NCBI RefSeq assembly: GCF_016924755.1 | Contig: NZ_JAFFJX010000004.1 | Span: forward strand, 62,001-126,000 | DNA: 64,000 nt | Direction: 5' to 3' | Source of the DNA: Longitalea arenae | Lineage (GTDB): Bacteria; Bacteroidota; Bacteroidia; Chitinophagales; Chitinophagaceae | Shown: one piece after another, positions 13,813-24,147 of the stretch | Position numbering within the stretch: position 1 is the stretch's first letter | Layout: each line of letters opens with the position of its first letter | Position numbers and translations under genes: made by a program | The notes under the pieces: model-generated | Seen by the model: the letters and a program-made list of their open reading frames with translations, nothing else | What the model was told of the DNA's origin: nothing | Database searches by the model: none

Positions 13813-15114
13813 ATGTTTTCAGCCAACACATCCCAAAACAGAACGGCATACAGTACCGAGATCATAGCCGGTACATCATCCTTCCTGGCCACTTCCTATA
13901 TTATTGTAGTGAACCCATCCGTTCTTAGCCAGGCAGGCATGCCCTTTAGCGGGGTGCTCACAGCCACCGTGTTGGTTTCCTTCTTCAGCAGTCTGATGAT
14001 GGGCTTGTATGCAAAGAACCCGGTGCTTGTGGCGCCTGGCATGGGCCTCAACGCTTTTTTCACTTTCTCTGCGGTCATCGGCATGAAAGTGCCCTGGCCT
14101 GTAGCATTGGGCGCTGTTTTCTGGAGCGGAATCATTTTCCTGATCCTGTCGGCCTTCAATATCCGGACTTATATCGTTCGCGCAATCCCCCGGCCGCTGC
14201 GTTATGCCATTGCAGCTGGCATTGGATTGTTCATAACCCTTATTGGTCTTGTGAATGCCGGCTTCATTGTGCACCATCCAGCTACGATCGTAGGCATTGG
14301 GAAATTACATCCTACCCTCCTTACATTTCTCGCCGGATTACTCTTTACCGCCGTGCTGGTAATCCGGCAGGTGAAAGGCGCTATTCTCATTGGTATTGTA
14401 TTCACCACACTGGCTGCATTGCCGCTGGGCCGCTGGTGGGCCACGGAAACAGCTCCTTTGATACACTGGAAAGGATTGTTTGCTGCGCCGGATTTCAGTC
14501 TTGTTCTGAAGCTCGACCTGGTAAACTCCCTGCAATGGTCTGTAGTACCGGTGATCTTTGCCTTTGTCTTTACCGATATGTTCGACAGCCTCTCTACCCT
14601 CGTCGGTTTATCGGAAGCTGCCAACCTGCTCGATGAGAATGGCGAACCACGTAATATAAAACCTGCACTAATAACCGATGCTGTTGCCACTACCCTGGCC
14701 GGATTGGTAGGAAGCAGCCCGGGTACGGCTTATATTGAATCTGCTGTAGGCATTAAAGAAGGTGGCAGAACAGGGCTTACCGCCATTACCGGCGCCATAT
14801 TATTCTTACCGTTTTTATTTCTCGCGCCGCTATTGTCGGTTGTGCCGGCCATTGCCACTGCACCGGCATTGGTACTGGTAGGTGTGTTCATGGTTCAACC
14901 CGTAACAAAGATCAACTGGCTGCAACTCGATGAAGCCATACCGGCTTTCCTCGCGATGGTCATCATTCCTTTTGCTTACAGCATTACCCAGGGCATCATC
15001 TGGGGTTTTCTTAGCTGGACGGCTATTAAACTGATTATTGGGAAAAGGAAGGACATTTCCTTAGCACTTTGGATCATAGATCTGTTCGCAATACTTGCTT
15101 TAATTCTTGAGTAG
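13813..15114 (+). CDS. NCS2-family purine permease (AzgA/PbuG-like)
   Basis: A 433-residue integral membrane protein with about 12-13 hydrophobic segments. It carries AzgA/PbuG signatures: APGMGLNAFF near residue 77, FVFTDMFDSLSTLVGLSEAANLLDENG near 253, and GSSPGTAYIESAVGIKEGGRTGLTA near 300. Family members import adenine, guanine or hypoxanthine by proton symport. The ATG at 13813 gives the usual short cytoplasmic N-terminus. It stands alone between the heptad array and the sulfatase-operon control region, with no purine gene nearby. Confidence 0.9.
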   Translation: MFSANTSQNRTAYSTEIIAGTSSFLATSYIIVVNPSVLSQAGMPFSGVLTATVLVSFFSSLMMGLYAKNPVLVAPGMGLNAFFTFSAVIGMKVPWPVALGAVFWSGIIFLILSAFNIRTYIVRAIPRPLRYAIAAGIGLFITLIGLVNAGFIVHHPATIVGIGKLHPTLLTFLAGLLFTAVLVIRQVKGAILIGIVFTTLAALPLGRWWATETAPLIHWKGLFAAPDFSLVLKLDLVNSLQWSVVPVIFAFVFTDMFDSLSTLVGLSEAANLLDENGEPRNIKPALITDAVATTLAGLVGSSPGTAYIESAVGIKEGGRTGLTAITGAILFLPFLFLAPLLSVVPAIATAPALVLVGVFMVQPVTKINWLQLDEAIPAFLAMVIIPFAYSITQGIIWGFLSWTAIKLIIGKRKDISLALWIIDLFAILALILE

Positions 15115-15169
15115 TTAGCGGTTACCAGTTACCAAAAGCCTCTAAAGCTGATACAGGTTACATAAAAAT

Positions 15170-15196
15170 ATAAGTCCATTATTTTGGTGGACTTAT
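15170..15196. promoter_or_regulatory. Perfect palindromic operator overlapping the sulfatase-operon promoter
   Basis: ATAAGTCCA (15170-15178) and TGGACTTAT (15188-15196) are exact inverted repeats with a 9-nt spacer. The spacer holds the proposed -33 element (TTTG, 15183-15186). No U-tract follows on the plus strand, so a protein-binding operator is likelier than a terminator. A dimeric regulator bound here would block RNA polymerase. No candidate regulator gene is adjacent. The AAGTCC core also occurs in terminator stems at 13362 and 55781, which tempers the operator reading. Confidence 0.55.
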
Positions 15197-15214
15197 AAAA
15201 AGATAGTAATCTTG
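15183..15214 (+). promoter_or_regulatory. Bacteroidota-type promoter of the SusC-SusD-sulfatase operon
   Basis: TTTG (15183-15186) and TAATCTTG (15207-15214) are separated by 20 bp, matching the Bacteroidota consensus TTTG-N(19-21)-TAnnTTTG at all but one position. Transcription would begin near 15220. The transcript would carry a TCCGGA-ACCCTA-TCCGGA hairpin (15240-15257), then the leader peptide gene. Confidence 0.5.
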
Positions 15215-15287
15215 TACCATCAAGTATAAACGAGGGATCTCCGGAACCCTATCCGGAAGCTGTTTTCATCAGCATAAACAATTAATA

Positions 15288-15344
15288 ATGTATATCGCGA
15301 AGTTTACCATACACGTCTGTTGTTGTATTAGCTTCTGTTGCTGA
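15288..15344 (+). CDS. Cysteine-rich leader peptide (candidate cysteine-responsive attenuator)
   Basis: An ATG preceded by the A/T-rich context typical of Bacteroidota starts opens an 18-codon frame reading MYIAKFTIHVCCCISFCC. Five of its last eight codons are Cys (TGT TGT TGT, then TGT TGC) and TGA follows immediately. Clustered codons for one amino acid just before the stop are the mark of attenuation leader peptides, and polycysteine short frames act as cysteine-responsive attenuators in mycobacteria. The downstream operon encodes a sulfatase, so low cysteine is a sensible signal. Between here and the SusC start (271 nt) lie two hairpins. No direct evidence shows that it is translated. Confidence 0.6.
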   Translation: MYIAKFTIHVCCCISFCC

Positions 15345-15499
15345 TCCCCGATTGCATTGCCTTGCACAGCCCTTACCTCATACCGGTAAATACCAACTCT
15401 TCACATTAAATACATAAAAGATGTTTCAGAATTCATCGTGATGATTCCAGACCAATGAACATGCGGTTGAGTAAGCGCATGATAAGACGGCAAAAAAAT

Positions 15500-15595
15500 G
15501 GCCGGAAACTGTTCCAGCAGTCCCGGCCTGGCAAATAAAAGGCTTAGCGATCACACCACACCAGCTATAATTAGCCAGGTGATGGCATCTTTTTT
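15500..15595 (+). promoter_or_regulatory. Two hairpins between leader peptide and susC (candidate attenuator)
   Basis: Hairpin A: GGCCGG (15500-15505) pairs with CCGGCC (15523-15528), with an inner ACTG/CAGT stem. Seven A residues precede it, so it would be a good intrinsic terminator on the minus strand. Hairpin B: CACC-A-GCTA (15559-15567) pairs with TAGC-CA-GGTG (15572-15581), followed 8 nt later by TTTTTT (15590-15595). An alternative outer pairing ATCAC/GTGAT (15550-15554 with 15579-15583) brings the stem nearer the U-run. B could terminate transcription 21 nt before the susC start codon. Confidence 0.4.
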
Positions 15596-15615
15596 CATTC
15601 ACCAAAACAAAGATA

Positions 15616-18600
15616 ATGAAGAAGGCGTACTACTTACCAATCTTCGTTCTTCAAACTGCTCTTTTTAATTCCGTAATGGCACAAACCAGTCCTGACACTG
15701 CACCACCTGTTGATGTACAAAAAGGACCGGTTCAAAATATATCATTCGGTGGAAAGATCCTCGATGAAAAGAACCGCACGCCGCTGACCGGCGCTACCGT
15801 GCACATCAATGGTACCACCCACCAGGTATTGACCGGCGATCATGGCGAATTCAGTTTTCTGACCGGGCAACGTTTACCGGCCACGCTCACCATCAGTTAT
15901 GTCGGCTATGTTACCCGCGTATTCACGGTGTCAGCAAAATATACAGAGATCACTTTACCAGAGAAAAATAAACACCTCGATGAAGTTGTTGTAACGGCCG
16001 TAGGTATTAAACGCAGCGCCAAAGCGCTTAGTTATAGTTTGTCGGAAGTGAAGGGTAAGGAACTGGTACAATCGCGGGAAGCCAATGTGGTAGCCGCTTT
16101 GAGCGGCAAAATAGCCGGTGTGCAGATCAACAGTTCGGGTGGTTCGCCCGGCGGTTCTTCATCTGTAAAGATCCGGGGAAACAGCTCCCTGCTCGGTAAC
16201 AACGCGCCTCTCTTCATCCTGGATGGTATTCCGGTCGATAACTCCATCCAGGACATCTTACCCTCTATCACCAATTCGGTTTCCCTGGCAACGCCCAGCA
16301 ACCGCGGTATCGATATCAACAGCGCTGATATTGCCAGCATCACCGTATTAAAAGGTCCAGCCGCTGCTGCGCTCTATGGCATCCGTGCATCGAATGGCGC
16401 TGTAGTCATCAATACCAAGAGAGGCAGCGCCCTTACCGCTAAAAAACTGCAGGTAAGCTATAGTGGTTCCTTTACCGTGGACGAGATCAACCGCCGCATG
16501 CAGCCCCGGCAAACCCAATTCTCCAATGGCCTGGGTGGTAATTATTTTCAACCCGGCATCACCGGTTCCGATGAGAATTGGGGCGCCCTGATCGACACGC
16601 TCACCTACAGCAACCAGCCGAGTAATTTTGACAAGAATGGTACGATCGTTGGCCAAAGCAGTCCGCTCTCGAATGGTATACCCGTGAACAGGTACAACAA
16701 TATAGATAACTTTTTCATCAATGGTTATACGATTGATAATAATATCAGCCTCTATGGCAATACCGGTAATGCCGGTTATTATTTCTCCTATGGCAATCTT
16801 AAACAAACCGGGATTATTCCTACTACTGATTTCTACCGCTATACTTTCCGCTTCAATGGCGATTATACGGTGAACGATCAATTGAAACTATCGGGCGGGC
16901 TCAACTATATCCAGGATGGCGCGCATAACCGGGCGCTGATGGGCGGCTTTAATACGAATGTGGTGCGCGCCCTGGTAAACTCGGCTGTTAACTTCGATAT
17001 CACCAACGGGTATAAAGATGCCTGGAAACATCCGGAAGCATACAAGCTGCCCCCAACGGCCGCAAAACCCTGGGGCGACAGCCGCTCCTATGCCAATGGT
17101 ATTGGCTGGGATAATCCCTACTGGTCATTGAACATGAATCCGCAGCATGACCAATTGAACCGCTTTATTGCTTTTGCCGAAGCTAACTATGATATCAACA
17201 GCTGGCTGAAAGCAACGGCCCGCTATGGTATCGATAATTATACCGATGTAAGAAAAGGCGCCTGGAGCCGCGGCACATCAGGCATATCTACCGGCACCAT
17301 CAACGATGTAAATTTCAGCCGCCGGGATAATAACCTCGACTTTCTCTTATCATCGCAGCACCGACTTACCAATGACATCGACCTGAATGTGATCACCGGT
17401 TACAATTATTATAGTTCCTACAGGAACCAGATCAATACCCGCGGCGATGGTTTGACCATCCCCGGTAATTTCAATATCAGCAATGCGTCATCCACCCAAA
17501 CCGTGAATCAAACGATCAGGAAGAAACTGGTGGCCGGTTATGCCGACATCAAACTGGATTACCAGAAATGGCTTTACCTCGAACTTACCGGCCGTAATGA
17601 ATGGACCAGCACGCTTCCCAAGGGAAAGAACTCCTTCTTCTACCCTTCTATCGGCAGCAGCTTTATTTTCACCGATGCCCTGCACCTGCATGGCAGCACC
17701 CTGAACTTTGGTAAGATCCGCGCCACCTATGCCCAGGTAGGCAATGACGCAGATCCTTATTCGCTGGATACTTACTATGGCACCACTGCTGCCAGCGGCT
17801 GGATCCAAAGCGGCATCAGTTTTCCGTTCAATGGTCAAACCGGGTTGAGCTACAGCACTACCATCGGGAACGCCAACCTGAAACCGGAAAGAATAAGCAC
17901 CTGGGAATTGGGCACAGAATTACATTTTGGCAACAGCCGTACCATCCTCGACGCGGTGTACTATAATAATAACAGTAAAGACCAGATCATTCCGGTCTCC
18001 CTGCCCGGCTCTACCGGCGCACAATACACGCTCACCAATGCCGGCAGTATCACCAACCAGGGCATTGAAGCATCGCTGCAACAGTATTTTATCAAAAAGA
18101 AAAAACTGAGCTGGAGCGCCACCGCCATCTTCAGCAAGAATATCAGTAAGGTCAACTACATTACCAACACGATCAATAATGTGATCCTGGGTGGCATCTG
18201 GATGGAAGCCCGCGGCCAGGCCGGTGACCCTTATGGCGTCTTTTACGGCATTGACGTAAAAAGAAATGAAGCCGGCAAAGTCGTGATCGACGACGAGATC
18301 AGCAGCAGTAACTATGGCTACCCCGTGGTAAATACCAGCTTTACGAGGATCGGTGACCCCAATCCCGATTTTAACCTCGGCTTAAGGAATGAGTTTAAAT
18401 CGGGTCCCTTCACGCTTTCCTTTCTTGTGGACGGACGTTTCGGGTTCGACATCTTCAATGCGCCGAAACTGCAAATGGTATTCAACGGCGTGGATGCGTC
18501 TACTGCAGAAAGGGGGTCTACTACCGTATTTGACGGGGTTACGGCCAGCAAGGGAGAACCCAATACCATCCCGGCGCTTTTGTCGCAGGCCTGGTACCGG

Positions 18601-18885
18601 AAGACCTTCAGCATACAGGGCCTTTATATAGAACACGATGTGTACTGGGTAAAGCTGAAAGATGTTAACCTTACCTACGAGTTGCCTGCCAAAATAATAA
18701 AGCCCGCAAAGATCTCGGCGGCCAGTGTTACGCTCACGGCCCGCAACTTCATCCTGGGCACCAATTACAGCGGCAGTGACCCTGATCTGGGCACCCGTAA
18801 CGGCCTGGCGAATTTCTCCGGCATCGATTTCTGGACAACCCCCAATACGCACAGCCTGGGCCTGGCCCTGAACATCACTTTCTAA
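15616..18885 (+). CDS. SusC/RagA-family TonB-dependent transporter of the sulfatase operon
   Basis: A 1089-residue outer-membrane transporter with a signal peptide (to about residue 22). It has a carboxypeptidase-D-regulatory-like domain (about 42-118), a plug (about 122-265: VVVTAVGIKRSAKALSYS, VKIRGNSSLLGNNAPLFILDGIPV, AALYGIRASNGAVVINTK) and a long barrel with a terminal aromatic strand. SusD follows after 18 bp. Linkage to an arylsulfatase suggests that the imported ligand is a sulfate ester, perhaps a sulfated sugar or a smaller organic sulfate. That assignment is inference from context. Confidence 0.92.
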   Translation: MKKAYYLPIFVLQTALFNSVMAQTSPDTAPPVDVQKGPVQNISFGGKILDEKNRTPLTGATVHINGTTHQVLTGDHGEFSFLTGQRLPATLTISYVGYVTRVFTVSAKYTEITLPEKNKHLDEVVVTAVGIKRSAKALSYSLSEVKGKELVQSREANVVAALSGKIAGVQINSSGGSPGGSSSVKIRGNSSLLGNNAPLFILDGIPVDNSIQDILPSITNSVSLATPSNRGIDINSADIASITVLKGPAAAALYGIRASNGAVVINTKRGSALTAKKLQVSYSGSFTVDEINRRMQPRQTQFSNGLGGNYFQPGITGSDENWGALIDTLTYSNQPSNFDKNGTIVGQSSPLSNGIPVNRYNNIDNFFINGYTIDNNISLYGNTGNAGYYFSYGNLKQTGIIPTTDFYRYTFRFNGDYTVNDQLKLSGGLNYIQDGAHNRALMGGFNTNVVRALVNSAVNFDITNGYKDAWKHPEAYKLPPTAAKPWGDSRSYANGIGWDNPYWSLNMNPQHDQLNRFIAFAEANYDINSWLKATARYGIDNYTDVRKGAWSRGTSGISTGTINDVNFSRRDNNLDFLLSSQHRLTNDIDLNVITGYNYYSSYRNQINTRGDGLTIPGNFNISNASSTQTVNQTIRKKLVAGYADIKLDYQKWLYLELTGRNEWTSTLPKGKNSFFYPSIGSSFIFTDALHLHGSTLNFGKIRATYAQVGNDADPYSLDTYYGTTAASGWIQSGISFPFNGQTGLSYSTTIGNANLKPERISTWELGTELHFGNSRTILDAVYYNNNSKDQIIPVSLPGSTGAQYTLTNAGSITNQGIEASLQQYFIKKKKLSWSATAIFSKNISKVNYITNTINNVILGGIWMEARGQAGDPYGVFYGIDVKRNEAGKVVIDDEISSSNYGYPVVNTSFTRIGDPNPDFNLGLRNEFKSGPFTLSFLVDGRFGFDIFNAPKLQMVFNGVDASTAERGSTTVFDGVTASKGEPNTIPALLSQAWYRKTFSIQGLYIEHDVYWVKLKDVNLTYELPAKIIKPAKISAASVTLTARNFILGTNYSGSDPDLGTRNGLANFSGIDFWTTPNTHSLGLALNITF

Positions 18886-18903: not shown

Positions 18904-20400
18904 ATGAACATACGTTTGAATCATATACCAAGCATGGTCGTTCTTGCCGCCTCGCTTATCACAGTAAGCTCATGCGATCTGTCAAAGACCAATGTTAATC
19001 CCAATGCTTCCACGGAAGTTTCCCTAAGCGCGGTATTGACCGGCACCGAAGTTTCGCTGGCCTTCAATACCGGCATCAATGCGGGCTTACTGACCAATAT
19101 ATATACGCAACAGGCGGCCGGCGCCAATGGCGATGCCGCACCCTTTGATAACTATACCACCTCGCCGGGCTATTTCAATGGCACCTGGGTGGGTTATTAT
19201 ACCAATGCGCTCACCAATCTGAAGATCATTCAACAAACTGCTGCCGATCAACAACTGCCTTATTACAGCGGCATTGCGCGCGTATTAACGGCTTTTTCCT
19301 ATGCTACGCTGACCGATATCTTCGGCGATATTCCCTTTAAAGAATCGTTATATGGCAATGGTATTACCAACCCGGTATACGATAAACAGGAGGAGATCTA
19401 TAAATACTTACAATTGCAGCTCGATTCTGCCATCGGCGATCTGTCGCAGCCGCTGGCTGCCAACCAGGGCGCTGTTCCTTCCTCAGACGATGTCATATTC
19501 AAGGGGGTGATCCAAAACTGGATCGCGACTGCCTATACTTTAAAGGCCCGGTATGCCATTCACCTGAGCAAGATCGATGCAAATACCGCCGCCCAAAAAG
19601 TGCTGGAATACCTGTATAACGGTAATAACTGGCGCGGCATTTCAGGTAATGCTGCTGACGCACAGGTCGTATTTGGCGCTGCTACCACCAATGCCAACCC
19701 ATTTTACCAGCAGAATACCAACCGGCCGGGCTGGATCGGTTTGGGCGCATCCTTCGTGAACCTGTTAAACGGCAATAAGGTCACTGATGCGAACACCAAA
19801 CCCGAAGGCGCATATGTAGATCCCCGCCGGGCCTATTTTGCCACGAATTATCCCGCCGGCAGCAGCACCTACCAGGGAAGTATAGCCGGCGTACCAGGCG
19901 CCTTCTCCCGTATAGGCCCCTATTACGGTACAGCCACATCACCGGTAATACTTGTAAGTTATGCAGAAGCCAAATTCCTTGAAGCGGAAGCGCGGCTTAT
20001 TTTAAATGCAACCGATCCCAAAGCACAAACCGCACTGGAAACGGCCGTACGCGCTTCCTTTGCCAAAGTGATCAGCAATAGCAGTGATCCTTATGCCACG
20101 CAGCAAAAACAAAACGACTATATCGCCGCGAAGGCCAGGCTTACCGGCAACTTTGCCACCGACCTGGAAACCATTATCACGCAGAAATACATTGCCCTGT
20201 TCCTGCAACCGGAGGTTTGGTCAGACTACCGCCGTACAGGCTACCCGGCGATACCGCTGGCGCAGAACGCCACCCATAGCGCCAATCCGAATGGACATAT
20301 ACCCCGGCGTATTCCGTATCCGCAAAACGAAACCTCGCTGAACCAAAACACGCCGCCCGGTTCCAATTATCAATCGCCCAGGTTGTGGTGGGACAGGTAA
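18904..20400 (+). CDS. SusD-like outer-membrane lipoprotein of the sulfatase operon
   Basis: A 498-residue lipoprotein with lipobox TVSSC (lipidated C24). It resembles the SusD-like_2 branch rather than classic RagB: TLTDIFGDIPFKESLYG near residue 140 and FLQPEVWSDYRRTGYP near the C-terminus are typical. It would form the ligand-binding lid of the SusC encoded just upstream. The gap to the sulfatase (20401-20580) is filled with three short-repeat arrays instead of a terminator. Confidence 0.92.
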   Translation: MNIRLNHIPSMVVLAASLITVSSCDLSKTNVNPNASTEVSLSAVLTGTEVSLAFNTGINAGLLTNIYTQQAAGANGDAAPFDNYTTSPGYFNGTWVGYYTNALTNLKIIQQTAADQQLPYYSGIARVLTAFSYATLTDIFGDIPFKESLYGNGITNPVYDKQEEIYKYLQLQLDSAIGDLSQPLAANQGAVPSSDDVIFKGVIQNWIATAYTLKARYAIHLSKIDANTAAQKVLEYLYNGNNWRGISGNAADAQVVFGAATTNANPFYQQNTNRPGWIGLGASFVNLLNGNKVTDANTKPEGAYVDPRRAYFATNYPAGSSTYQGSIAGVPGAFSRIGPYYGTATSPVILVSYAEAKFLEAEARLILNATDPKAQTALETAVRASFAKVISNSSDPYATQQKQNDYIAAKARLTGNFATDLETIITQKYIALFLQPEVWSDYRRTGYPAIPLAQNATHSANPNGHIPRRIPYPQNETSLNQNTPPGSNYQSPRLWWDR

Positions 20401-20404
20401 GAAC

Positions 20405-20551
20405 GATGTGCTGATGTGCTGATGTGCTGATGTGCTGATTTGCTGATGTGCTGATGTGCTGATGCAATACACCGTATACAATGTGATAATTTGATAATGT
20501 GATAATGTGATAATTGAATACAGGGATTCACCATTGACCATTCACCATTGA
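20405..20551. repeat. Three different short-unit arrays in the susD-sulfatase gap
   Basis: Seven copies of the octad GATGTGCT (one variant GATTTGCT) fill 20405-20460. Four copies of the octad TGTGATAA (one variant) fill 20482-20513, followed by TTGAATACAGGG. Four CCATTGA-type heptads fill 20524-20551. The second array with its tail recurs at 35677-35718. Minus-strand open frames here (His-Gln-Ile-Ser-Thr-Ser repeats) are artefacts. Confidence 0.9.
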
Positions 20552-20580
20552 CCACCATTAAAAAACCAAGAACAACTCAA

Positions 20581-22905
20581 ATGAATAAACAAACACTAAT
20601 AAAGCTACTCGCAACGACGATACAGGTTGCTGCGGTAAGCTCCTTAATGGCGCAATACAGCCCGGTACAATCATTTGCCGGTAAAGCGGGCAGAACCCTG
20701 TCGGAAACAACACCGGGCAATAGACCTTTTAATCCGGTGGCGCCTAAGCATGCCCCCAACATTGTTTATATCTTACTCGATGATGTGGGCTTTGGCGCCA
20801 GCAGCGCTTTTGGCGGTTTGGTGGAAACGCCCACCTTCGACAGCCTGGCCAACAACGGGCTTCGCTACACGAACTTCCATACCACCGCCATCTGCTCCCC
20901 TACCCGTGCCTCGCTGTTAACAGGCCGCAATCACCATTCGGTGAACGTGAATACAGTGATCGATCTGGCCGTTGATGCGCCGGGGCACCATGGCTATATG
21001 CCTTTTGAAAAAGCCACTATTGCCGAGATAGCGCGTGAAAATGGCTATAATACATTTGCCATTGGGAAATGGCATATAACCCCTACCCCCGACCTTACCG
21101 GCGCTGGTCCCTTCAACCGCTGGCCAACCGGACGCGGCTTCGATCGCTTCTATGGATTTATGGCCGGTGAAACAGATCAGTATACGCCCATGTTATGGGA
21201 GAACACGTCGAAAATAGAACCCGATCTGCAAGGAAAACACCTGACCACCGTACTGGTCGACAAAGCGATTGAATATATTGCCGGTCAAAAATCAGCAGCA
21301 CCTGATAAACCTTTCTTTCTCTATCTCACACCAGGAGCAACGCATGGTCCGCACCAGGTTGACCGGCAATGGATCGATAAATACAAAGGCCGTTTTGATG
21401 CGGGCTGGGATAAATACCGCGAAGAAGTGCTGGCGCGGCAAAAGAAGCTGGGCCTTGTTCCTGCCAACACAACATTACCGGTTCGCAACCCAGGGGTAAA
21501 AGCATGGGATTCGTTATCGGCGGTAGAAAAGAAGGTATTTGCCCGTTTCTTCGAAGCTTATGCCGGTTTCCTCGCGCACACTGATTTTGAAATTGGCCGG
21601 CTCATCAATTATCTCAAGACCATCGACCAGCTCAACAATACCCTGGTTGTATTGATCATTGGCGACAATGGCGCCAGTAAAGAAGGTGGCATTACCGGGC
21701 ATGCGTATGGCATCAATGAATATATCGATGGCAGTTTGTTCACTGAAAGATACGAAGACCGCATCCGGGACATCGAGAAACTGTATGATGATATCGGCAC
21801 TTCCAGATCGGGTCCTAATTATCCGGCCGGCTGGGCACAGGCAGCCAATACCCCTTTCCGTTGGTTAAAGCAGGATGCCAACAGTGAAGGCGGCACCCGT
21901 AATCCATTGGTCCTTTTCTATCCCAATGGAATTAAAGAAAGAGGTATCCGAACGCAATACTCACATATCAACAGCATAACACCTACTGCCATTGACATTG
22001 CAAAACTTACCGTACCAGCCGTGATCAATGGCTATAAACAGGAACCGCTGGAAGGCATTAGCCTGGTCTATACCCTTAGCAATCCGAAGGCGCCCGGCCA
22101 ACACCATGTACAACATTATGAGATCAGTGGCAGCCGCTCAATTTATAAAGACGGTTGGAAAGCGCAGGTCTACCATCGCAACGGCACTTCTTTTGCGAAT
22201 GACAAATGGGAATTGTATAATCTGCAGGAAGACTTCAACGAACAAAAAGAACTGTCAGCTGCTTACCCCGAAAAATTAAAAGAACTGCAGGCGCTCTTTG
22301 AACAGGAAGCGCAGAAATACAATGTATATCCTTTGCTCGGTGATACGACCGTTCGCAGTATTCAAAAACTCACCAAAGGCCCCTTCGATGTACGGCGGCA
22401 GGCCGTCCTGTATCCGGGTCTAACCCAGTTGCCCAATCGCGCAGGCCCGGCACTCTACCAACACTCCTTCAGCCTGAAAGCCGATGTGGAGCTAAGCGGC
22501 AACAATACAGAAGGTGTGTTACTGGCCACCGGCGGCCGCTTCACAGGATTCAGCTTCTTTGTGCATGAAGGCAAATTGAAAGTGGCGCACAACAATAATG
22601 GCAAACTGGTATACCTGGAATCTACGCAGCCACTACCCCTGGGCAAAGCGGTTTTACGCTATGACCTTATATACAAAGCTGCCAAAAACCTGACTGATGA
22701 AGCCGGCACGGAAGCTTTATACATCAACGATGTAAAGGTCGCCGAACGCACCATCACGAAAGCCGATGCTACCATTATGCCTTATGATGAAGGGCTGGAT
22801 GTTGGTAAAGACAATGGTTCTGCCGTAACGCCGCTGTATAAATCACCCTTTGTATTCACCGGTCAGTTGAATAAAGTGATCGTTGAACATAATTCATTAC
22901 CATAA
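20581..22905 (+). CDS. Secreted arylsulfatase, AtsA-like, with C-terminal lectin-like domain
   Basis: A 774-residue alkaline-phosphatase-superfamily sulfatase. A signal peptide ends near MAQ (residue 23). The core starts at NIVYILLDDVGFG, which supplies metal-binding aspartates, and holds the sulfatase signature CSPTRASLLTG with C105 as the residue converted to formylglycine. KWH and a DNGAS segment complete the active site. The last roughly 140 residues look like a beta-sandwich domain, as in long AtsA-type arylsulfatases used by other bacteria to scavenge sulfur. I chose ATG 20581 over 20548, which reads through the upstream array. No formylglycine-generating enzyme is encoded in the window, so maturation must occur in trans. 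Confidence 0.92.
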   Translation: MNKQTLIKLLATTIQVAAVSSLMAQYSPVQSFAGKAGRTLSETTPGNRPFNPVAPKHAPNIVYILLDDVGFGASSAFGGLVETPTFDSLANNGLRYTNFHTTAICSPTRASLLTGRNHHSVNVNTVIDLAVDAPGHHGYMPFEKATIAEIARENGYNTFAIGKWHITPTPDLTGAGPFNRWPTGRGFDRFYGFMAGETDQYTPMLWENTSKIEPDLQGKHLTTVLVDKAIEYIAGQKSAAPDKPFFLYLTPGATHGPHQVDRQWIDKYKGRFDAGWDKYREEVLARQKKLGLVPANTTLPVRNPGVKAWDSLSAVEKKVFARFFEAYAGFLAHTDFEIGRLINYLKTIDQLNNTLVVLIIGDNGASKEGGITGHAYGINEYIDGSLFTERYEDRIRDIEKLYDDIGTSRSGPNYPAGWAQAANTPFRWLKQDANSEGGTRNPLVLFYPNGIKERGIRTQYSHINSITPTAIDIAKLTVPAVINGYKQEPLEGISLVYTLSNPKAPGQHHVQHYEISGSRSIYKDGWKAQVYHRNGTSFANDKWELYNLQEDFNEQKELSAAYPEKLKELQALFEQEAQKYNVYPLLGDTTVRSIQKLTKGPFDVRRQAVLYPGLTQLPNRAGPALYQHSFSLKADVELSGNNTEGVLLATGGRFTGFSFFVHEGKLKVAHNNNGKLVYLESTQPLPLGKAVLRYDLIYKAAKNLTDEAGTEALYINDVKVAERTITKADATIMPYDEGLDVGKDNGSAVTPLYKSPFVFTGQLNKVIVEHNSLP

Positions 22906-23058: not shown

Positions 23059-24147
23059 ATGAAATCAGCACCAACACTCACCCAAAAAATAAGCCGCGAT
23101 GCCCTGATCAGCATCTTTATCTATGCATTGCCGGTCGTACTGATGTTCCTAAGTTTTTATGTAAGCGGTGTACGTCCCTGGGAACAAAGTACCAGTACAG
23201 AACTACCGTTTAAAGCGCCCTGGTTCATTGAAGCCGTTTTTAAAAACCTGCGCACCTGGGGCTTGCCTGTCATTATGATTGTGGTGGGTATTATTGAGTT
23301 TGCAGTGGGATTGTATGAAAACAAGTGGACAAAGAACGAGCGCATACTGGATATCGTATGTTTCATTGTACCTAAGATCGTGCTCAGACCGCTGATCGCT
23401 TATTTTGGATTGAAAGTATTACCTGTCATTTTACCGGGCGGTAAGGATGCTTTTGCCTGGATCCCGTTCTGGTGGGGATTTCTGATCATCGCTATTGCGG
23501 ATGACCTCACCCAATACTGGTACCACCGGCTGCACCACCAGCTGCCTTTCCTCTGGCGTTTTCACCGCACCCATCATTCAGCCCCTTATATGGGCATGGC
23601 CATGGCAGGCAGACAGAATATTATTTATACCATTTTCTTTTCGCAGATCTATTTAACAACTTCTCTCACCTATCTGGGTCTTGGTTATTCTGCATTGTTT
23701 GTTTCCGGTATCAAATCGCTGATTACCACGGGAGCGCATTCAAGCATACCCTGGGATAAACCTTTCTATACGATCAAATGGTTAAAACCGGTGGGCTGGG
23801 TGCTCGAAAGGCTTATTTCCACGCCGGCTACTCATCATGCGCATCATGCGGATACTACCGACGATGGGGTCGGTCATTACAAAGGCAATTTTGGGAATAT
23901 GTTCTTTTTGTGGGATGTCATTTTCAAGACCGGGATCATTACCCGCCAGTATCCGAAATCATATGGGTTGAAACATTACAAAGAAGAAGAATGGTATGCG
24001 CAGTTCCTGTGGCCAATTTTCAAATCGAAAAAAGAAGGCAGTGAACTGGCAGCGAATGGACCGGAAGTAGGTGATGAAGTGGAACAATCAAAAGAAGAAC
24101 ATATAACGCCTGCCGCAACCGTGCTTAGTCCAGGCTCACCCGTATAA
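23059..24147 (+). CDS. Fatty-acid-hydroxylase / sterol-desaturase superfamily membrane enzyme
   Basis: A 362-residue integral membrane protein with about four to five hydrophobic segments. It carries the histidine clusters of the non-haem di-iron hydroxylases: YHRLHH and FHRTHHS near residues 155-175, and THHAHHAD near 258. Members hydroxylate or desaturate lipids such as sterols and fatty acids. The C-terminal 40 residues are acidic and probably disordered. Co-transcription with a sulfatase suggests action on a lipid released from a sulfate ester, or on the sulfonolipids that many Bacteroidota make. Both ideas are inference. Confidence 0.87.
   Translation: MKSAPTLTQKISRDALISIFIYALPVVLMFLSFYVSGVRPWEQSTSTELPFKAPWFIEAVFKNLRTWGLPVIMIVVGIIEFAVGLYENKWTKNERILDIVCFIVPKIVLRPLIAYFGLKVLPVILPGGKDAFAWIPFWWGFLIIAIADDLTQYWYHRLHHQLPFLWRFHRTHHSAPYMGMAMAGRQNIIYTIFFSQIYLTTSLTYLGLGYSALFVSGIKSLITTGAHSSIPWDKPFYTIKWLKPVGWVLERLISTPATHHAHHADTTDDGVGHYKGNFGNMFFLWDVIFKTGIITRQYPKSYGLKHYKEEEWYAQFLWPIFKSKKEGSELAANGPEVGDEVEQSKEEHITPAATVLSPGSPV

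Follow-up and report, generated by a model that had tools for sequence, protein, structure and literature searches.

Cysteine-rich leader peptides and the Longitalea arenae locus

Mycobacterial leader peptides with runs of cysteine codons (poly-Cys leaders) are reportedly cysteine-responsive, going by the title of a 2020 study by Canestrari et al. Here, poly-Cys leaders are described for a different phylum, starting from a short frame in a stretch of 64,000 nucleotides (nt) of Longitalea arenae DNA (Bacteroidota; Chitinophagaceae; contig NZ_JAFFJX010000004.1, positions 62,001 to 126,000), called the window throughout. The frame precedes an operon for a SusC-SusD (SusCD) importer and a sulfatase, and its peptide quite probably senses charged tRNA-Cys and controls the operon for sulfur scavenging, as judged from the comparisons set out below.

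Poly-Cys leaders have been reported ahead of the cys operons of Mycobacterium and Propionibacterium acnes, and ahead of cbs of Bifidobacterium longum (PMC1262725). For the mycobacterial leaders, Rho-dependent termination like that of tnaC was proposed in 2005 (PMC1262725), and a later account describes them as acting by translation attenuation (PMC13236596). The actinobacterial leaders and those described here share a Cys run near the stop codon, a position upstream of cysteine genes, and the lack of a conserved terminator, but they belong to different phyla, and here one of the two target operons encodes a SusCD importer of the outer membrane together with a sulfatase. In addition, the mycobacterial frames are leaderless, whereas the ATG in the window follows the predicted start of transcription by about 67 nt; in the orthologous locus L255 the ATG is almost at the predicted start. 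The frames of the two phyla are short and unlike, and may have arisen independently.

A second described case is the uORFC-8-2 motif before cysS in the Rhodobacterales (PMC8632094), likewise a short upstream frame with tandem Cys codons, whose presumed effect is ribosome stalling once charged tRNA-Cys runs low. The motif has two Cys codons and an intrinsic terminator, whereas the leaders described here have 4-8 Cys in the last 14 codons, mostly no terminator, and other genes behind them. In Flavobacterium psychrophilum, leader peptide attenuation has been inferred in the 5' regions of operons for amino acid biosynthesis (PMC9723704), which agrees with the present case in phylum and general type of control; the accessible portion of that paper names neither a cysteine leader nor a SusCD operon. 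Among open-licence PubMed Central papers, our searches found no poly-Cys leader for Bacteroidota or for SusCD operons, in agreement with the original prediction, which was made from the DNA letters of the window and held that control of a SusCD operon by a Cys leader was undescribed. The working principle would be that of the known poly-Cys leaders, in another phylum and before a new type of target operon.

The leader frame upstream of susC

The frame, its predicted promoter and the operon behind it are arranged as follows.

15183 to 15214, plus strand: predicted Bacteroidota-type promoter, TTTG-N20-TAATCTTG, read from the sequence; transcription start expected near 15220
15288 to 15344, plus strand: Cys-run leader frame, MYIAKFTIHVCCCISFCC and stop, ATG to TGA, read from the sequence; counterparts at 18 of 18 orthologous loci
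15616 to 18885, plus strand: susC, TonB-dependent receptor (Pfam)
18904 to 20400, plus strand: susD, SusD-like_2 (Pfam)
20548 to 22905, plus strand: sulfatase, PF00884 (Pfam)

The frame comprises 18 codons and a TGA stop, with Cys in five of the last eight codons (the Cys block CCCISFCC). The original prediction had both coordinates and reading exactly right, and its placement of the frame between a predicted Bacteroidota promoter and susC also holds. The TTTG box occupies 15183-15186 and is followed, after a spacer of 20 nt, by the -7 box TAATCTTG at 15207-15214, with one mismatch to TAnnTTTG, the Bacteroidota -7 consensus. The -7 form TAnnCTTG is conserved at loci L017, L018, L020, and L255, with TAATATTG at L275. 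A generic sigma-70 scan gave no promoter match, Bacteroidota promoters being outside the coverage of that scan. The frame has the marks of a leader peptide, namely a run of Cys codons between a predicted promoter and the first gene that is kept while the rest of the peptide drifts.

Cysteine is used for 74 of 16668 codons in the window (24 long open reading frames (ORFs) taken as coding sequences), and the binomial probability of five Cys in the eight codons at the leader end is about 1e-10 for that single spot. In dinucleotide shuffles of the intergenic stretch of about 500 nt, a comparable frame, in any frame and at any place, arose in 8 of 5000. A test for Cys leaders was defined as an ATG start, at least four Cys within the last 14 codons, and one CC; applied to the 500 nt before 28 ORFs of the window, it had the frame upstream of susC as its sole match.

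Conservation of the leader before susC

A genome scan with SusD yielded 42 loci: 16 close ones (L017-L032; 64-86% identical) and 26 distant ones. A Cys-rich frame is found within 500 nt before susC in 15 of the 16 close loci, as compared with none of 16 on the reverse strand and 29 of 4800 shuffles. Among the distant loci the leader was found in one of 24; the remaining two of the 26 lacked a susC frame on which to run the test. In the sixteenth close locus (L031) the frame, MKRHTHICGRRSHTPLPGTVNTCSRYMQTATCCCSCCC and stop, lies about 1.1 kb upstream, before a gene that precedes susC, with an exact match to the palindrome (see below) upstream of the frame. Two further orthologues have the leader MARHTLYTCCCQHCCC and stop (L255) and a leader frame ending in MFTAREDIHYCCCSIHCCCC and stop (L275). 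Conservation at orthologous loci, on which the original prediction had been made to depend, was therefore found throughout: a short Cys-ending frame is present at 18 of 18 orthologous susC-susD loci outside the window, directly before susC in 17, with 4-7 Cys within the last 14 codons. The 18 loci come from Longitalea, Niastella, Paraflavitalea, Foetidibacter, Rhodocytophaga, eleven Chitinophaga, and two more genomes.

The peptides fall into unlike groups, as exemplified by MYIAKFTIHVCCCISFCC, MNQLLNNNRKKALHTDRLLSDGCCCCCCC, and MNTPKNTQLSTLQVSAKCITNLKHAQGRCCCCR. The N-terminal parts vary by lineage, while the Cys block persists and changes by whole codons and by TGT/TGC swaps. For instance, in nine leaders of the MNQLL/MDQLL type the Cys block ranges from 4 to 7 by whole codons, with TGT and TGC interchanged. 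The distance from leader to susC is 42-286 nt, depending on the start codon chosen; for L022 and L028 it is 42 nt to the first ATG, and 129 and 102 nt, respectively, to the likelier starts.

A second Cys leader before the cysteine biosynthesis operon

The link of the Cys leader to a pathway comes through the cysHDNEK operon. A search for 3'-phosphoadenosine 5'-phosphosulfate reductase (PF01507) gave matches in 37 of 39 related genomes, with 30 loci listed, and the DNA upstream of such genes was inspected. In the genome that contains the window, cysH is preceded by another Cys-rich frame, MFRSHAIQIMYISCCNKYCCC and stop, which is unlike the first in sequence, and behind it stands a complete cysHDNEK-cobA-cysJI operon (cysH, cysD, cysN, cysE, cysK, cobA, cysJ, and cysI). 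The products pass curated NCBIfam cut-offs except the cysJ-like one (571 bits versus 668), and cysE passes only as an EpsC-type serine acetyltransferase. Within the genus, the cysH leader is present in 9 of 9 genomes with the locus; a tenth genome (61% complete) gave no CysH match.

In a scan of 218 genomes of the order, 57 gave a CysH match at E 1e-50. A Cys leader lies within 300 nt in 19 of the best 30 CysH loci, own locus included, and two more have frames ending in CCC-stop; the reverse strand of the 30 gave no such leader, and shuffling gave 23 in 6000. Three of the 57 loci (G203, G273, G303) were left out of leader inspection, and three others were left uncounted: L198 (frame at -178, with two reverse-strand frames too), L199 (frame inside the gene), and L247 (frame at -493, with one reverse-strand frame). 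Genomes with a susC leader that also carry a cysH leader belong to Longitalea, Niastella, and Paraflavitalea; Rhodocytophaga gave no CysH match.

Taken together, the susC and cysH sets comprise 37 leaders (18 and 19, respectively). The final sense codon encodes Cys in 29; in the other 8 the last Cys lies one or two codons off, and TGT outnumbers TGC by 143 to 59. The reading of the window frame as a cysteine leader is supported by its conservation at the susC loci and, independently, by Cys leaders of unlike sequence ahead of the cysteine biosynthesis operon in this genome and in its relatives; a promoter palindrome is also common to the two operons.

A palindrome shared by susC and cysH promoters

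15174 to 15192, no strand: operator-like palindrome GTCCATTATTTTGGTGGAC over the -33 region; 3 of 12 mismatches to GTCTAC-N7-GTAGAC

GTCTAC-N7-GTAGAC is the form at Chitinophaga susC promoters. At a limit of 3 mismatches in 12, the palindrome is carried by 15 of 18 susC promoters (counting the window), by 8 of 8 cysH promoters of the genus (L119 left out), and by 16 of 19 cysH promoters of the wider set, compared with a shuffle rate of 2.4-3.4%; the L275 susC promoter, scored separately from the 18, also has 3 mismatches. The consensus was formed after the Chitinophaga susC sites and eleven cysH loci had been seen, so that these are no independent test; among wider-set cysH loci unseen at that point, 14 of 16 have the palindrome. 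One locus of the own genome, listed as both L168 and L109, enters two of the counts.

The exact palindrome occurs at 30 sites in 12 genomes, versus 8 for a reversed control, and two of the genomes (Longitalea and Niastella) have no exact copy. Of 19 loci inspected from the 30 sites, 17 adjoin one of five gene kinds:

susC leader or L031-type leader: 4 loci
Cys/Met-metabolism pyridoxal phosphate enzyme: 5 loci
PhyH-type dioxygenase: 4 loci
YitT membrane protein: 2 full matches and 1 partial (L260)
sulfatase: 1 locus

Some palindromes lie between divergent genes, and the gene served is then ambiguous. The Chitinophaga sites (L256-L273) likely mark a sulfur regulon, judging from these neighbors. 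In the own genome, neither TAGTAGACTAATA as a regulon mark (4 sites versus 7 in the control) nor CTACN7GTAGACTTA (5 versus 10) exceeded its control. A near-copy of the palindrome is present there before a small gene (L134, G000:C5:29653), behind which stands a gene that resembles, by appearance, a second sterol desaturase.

Proposed mechanism

We infer translation of the frame, ribosome stalling, the sign of the response, and the sulfur-scavenging role of the leader system. The only conserved property of the predicted peptide is a block of Cys codons ending at most two codons from the stop. When Cys-tRNA is charged, ribosomes would complete the leader and leave, exposing the mRNA behind it, and expression of susC, susD, and the sulfatase would be low. 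When cysteine is scarce, ribosomes would stall on the Cys block, covering the stop codon and the following stretch, and the operon would be expressed. Sulfate esters would then be imported and desulfated, feeding the sulfate assimilation operon, itself preceded by the same kind of leader.

The step after the stall may be termination without an intrinsic hairpin (Rho-type, as at Escherichia coli tnaC) or control of susC translation. Both are likelier than a trp-type switch because a simple scan for perfect stems found no intrinsic terminator in 34 of 36 leader-gene regions. Since the mycobacterial Cys leaders have been described as translation attenuation, we give the Rho-type and translational steps even odds within this mechanism, each slightly short of an even chance, with a small remainder for some other step. 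One feature bears on the Rho-type step:

15345 to 15404, plus strand: C-rich, G-poor stretch, candidate Rho loading site; 23 C and 7 G in the 60 nt after the leader stop

An excess of C over G behind the leader is also seen at L017, L018, L020, L255, and L275, and at 18 of 19 cysH leaders. The stretch suits Rho-dependent termination, without proving it. As for RNA structure, the predicted fold of the window's leader region is more stable than those of all 100 shuffles (z -3.0), and in a consensus fold (alifold) of four loci the last Cys codons and the stop pair with bases upstream of the leader, with pairs mostly unchanged or changed on one side. Two individual hairpins were noted:

15240 to 15257, plus strand: hairpin TCCGGAACCCTATCCGGA, upstream of the leader frame; from a terminator-like scan and fold
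15589 to 15625, plus strand: possible hairpin CUUUUUUCAUU / AAUGAAGAAGG, which would mask the susC start codon; minimum-energy fold only

The first is not essential, because L255 has no room for it; the second is missing from the alignment consensus fold.

Several observations weigh against a cysteine-sensing leader of this design. Many of the 18 susC loci share descent, and by leader sequence they represent about six unlike groups and not 18 independent events. The C-rich stretch is missing behind Chitinophaga susC leaders, where G is about equal to C, and no more than 13 of the 37 leaders reach an excess of C over G of at least 8, as compared with 6.5% of 276 background windows. Folding of leader regions gave no switch from stalling to gene start with convincing covariation, the covariation being too thin to judge. 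With respect to cysH, among 20 weaker loci the Cys leader is clear at L210 alone, with one doubtful case, and four further CysH loci have none. In Chitinophaga, cysH is without a Cys leader in 11 of 11 genomes (12 CysH loci), despite the susC leader, and the two leaders are thus not always coupled.

Within about 250 bases ahead of the CysH match, the Chitinophaga cysH promoters (L241-L252) mostly have a different conserved 5' region in place of the Cys leader, for instance AGTCTATCTTTTTTATAGG followed by CTGGCACTAGAC.

Alternative explanations

The best surviving alternative, though an unlikely one, is that the promoter palindrome and its binding protein do all of the sulfur control, the frame being translated only as an aid to re-initiation or as a relic. 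The palindrome is common to susC and cysH promoters, and in Chitinophaga it also lies at other genes without a Cys leader. Leader genes have moreover been proposed to raise translation by re-initiation (PMC4833913). However, the distances from leader to susC exceed the 11-14 bp peak reported for Bacteroidetes in the same study (PMC4833913). Cys would also be superfluous in a relic or a re-initiation aid, yet the Cys blocks are retained as the remainder of the peptide changes.

A classical trp-type attenuator, in which ribosome stalling lets an antiterminator break up an intrinsic terminator located between the leader and susC, fits the position of the leader, and the Rhodobacterales cysS leaders do combine two Cys codons with a U-run terminator (PMC8632094). 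Its probability is nevertheless lower again than that of the palindrome acting alone, as a perfect plus-strand stem of at least 5 pairs with a T-run was not found in 34 of the 36 leader-gene regions, a scan that mismatched stems would escape. The exceptions are short stems in L022 and L030, and in another terminator scan of 15000-15800 the sole plus-strand match lies before the leader. The original prediction of a cysteine-responsive leader is supported by the conserved frame, the cysH leaders, and the common palindrome; the terminator of a trp-type device was missing from those 34 regions.

It is quite improbable that the Cys-rich peptide is itself active, for example in metal binding or redox sensing. 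Cys clusters can bind metals. A nascent exported protein has been reported to sense copper by translational control (PMC9973294). The spacing of the Cys residues is unconserved, however (runs of 4-7, CCCISFCC, CCNKYCCC, and others), and the genes behind the leaders are those of cysteine biosynthesis and of an importer with a sulfatase, not of metal handling.

Less probable still is that the real regulator of susC is an antisense RNA, as is DonS in Bacteroides:

15601 to 15492, minus strand: predicted cis-antisense RNA spanning the susC leader and start (about 110 nt; two hairpins, T7 terminator)

Its -7 box, TATCTTTG, lies at 15615-15608, within the susC start. The box, a length of 108-112 nt, and the T7 terminator recur at four of six window-type loci (window, L017, L018, L255); in L020 and L275 the box and hairpin are present and the T7 is absent. 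In size and position the predicted RNA is like the DonS family at susC homologues, whose RNAs of 78-128 nt repress these genes (PMC7366714), but the RNA here is a prediction and, as far as shown, unrelated to the Cys leader. In Chitinophaga the Cys leader is present while the sequence, on reading, shows no such hairpin; there the gap between leader end and likely susC start is about 96-129 nt. An antisense RNA and a Cys leader can also coexist, and the predicted RNA is a separate prediction that the Cys leader does not require. An Rfam minus-strand match to SdsR_RyeB (25 bits against a threshold of 38) is sub-threshold and is not believed. Finally, a chance frame holding five Cys codons, although obtained at the shuffle rate given above for the window stretch, is refuted by conservation at 18 of 18 loci and by recurrence before cysH, and retains next to no probability.

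Other searches and neighboring genes

Among the places inspected, pattern searches for Cys leaders elsewhere in the genomes gave no further candidate. The genome-wide searches, by TGYTGYTGYTGYTRR in 98 genomes and by TGYTGYTGYTRR in the own genome (114 places, 100 listed), were swamped by coding repeats read out of frame. An own-genome match to CCC..CC-stop (C39:179574) was rejected as chance, being an Ala-rich coding frame (AAAKAPAA) read out of register. Among 30 places from the Cys-pattern searches, all 17 with a true stop lie within frames of more than 120 codons; among 20 more stretches, three (L218, L230, L236) lie in no frame of more than 80 codons, and by eye none of these precedes a sulfur gene.

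Behind the leader, susC and susD are adjacent, as expected of a SusCD locus, and the arrangement is conserved in L017-L032. The original prediction had named an AtsA-like arylsulfatase in the operon; the sulfatase family holds (PF00884), and the arylsulfatase subtype is at most a candidate, the NCBIfam arylsulfatase models scoring below their cut-offs. A sulfatase 71-89% identical lies 3' of susD in 13 of 16 loci, and L027 has another sulfatase-like match between susD and the close sulfatase. The sulfatases of L029 are more distantly related, a frame in L031 begins like a sulfatase (seen by its start only), and in L032, a metagenome-assembled genome, no sulfatase was seen and the leader is still present. 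Further downstream lies one more conserved gene:

23059 to 24147, plus strand: fatty acid hydroxylase / sterol desaturase family protein (Pfam); kept downstream in 16 of 16 loci

This gene is retained even at loci without a close sulfatase match, and its conservation suggests that the substrate may be a sulfate ester of a lipid- or sterol-like kind.

Implications

SusCD loci are usually read as carbon-source systems that are induced by their glycan. On balance, we favor the view that part of the Bacteroidota has a two-layer cysteine regulon, composed of the palindrome and of poly-Cys leaders without a terminator, that captured a SusCD importer and a sulfatase, such that the importer would serve sulfur acquisition switched by ribosome stalling and not a carbon-driven glycan locus, with antisense RNA as a possible third layer in the lineage of the window. 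If this is true, some SusCD-sulfatase loci would be sulfur scavengers, for which the glycan would be the wrong inducer to seek. Poly-Cys leaders would be extended to another phylum, and would provide a sequence-based marker for sulfur-driven importers. Bacteroidota rarely use Shine-Dalgarno sites, and the locus would offer a compact system for studying leader-peptide action in such bacteria.

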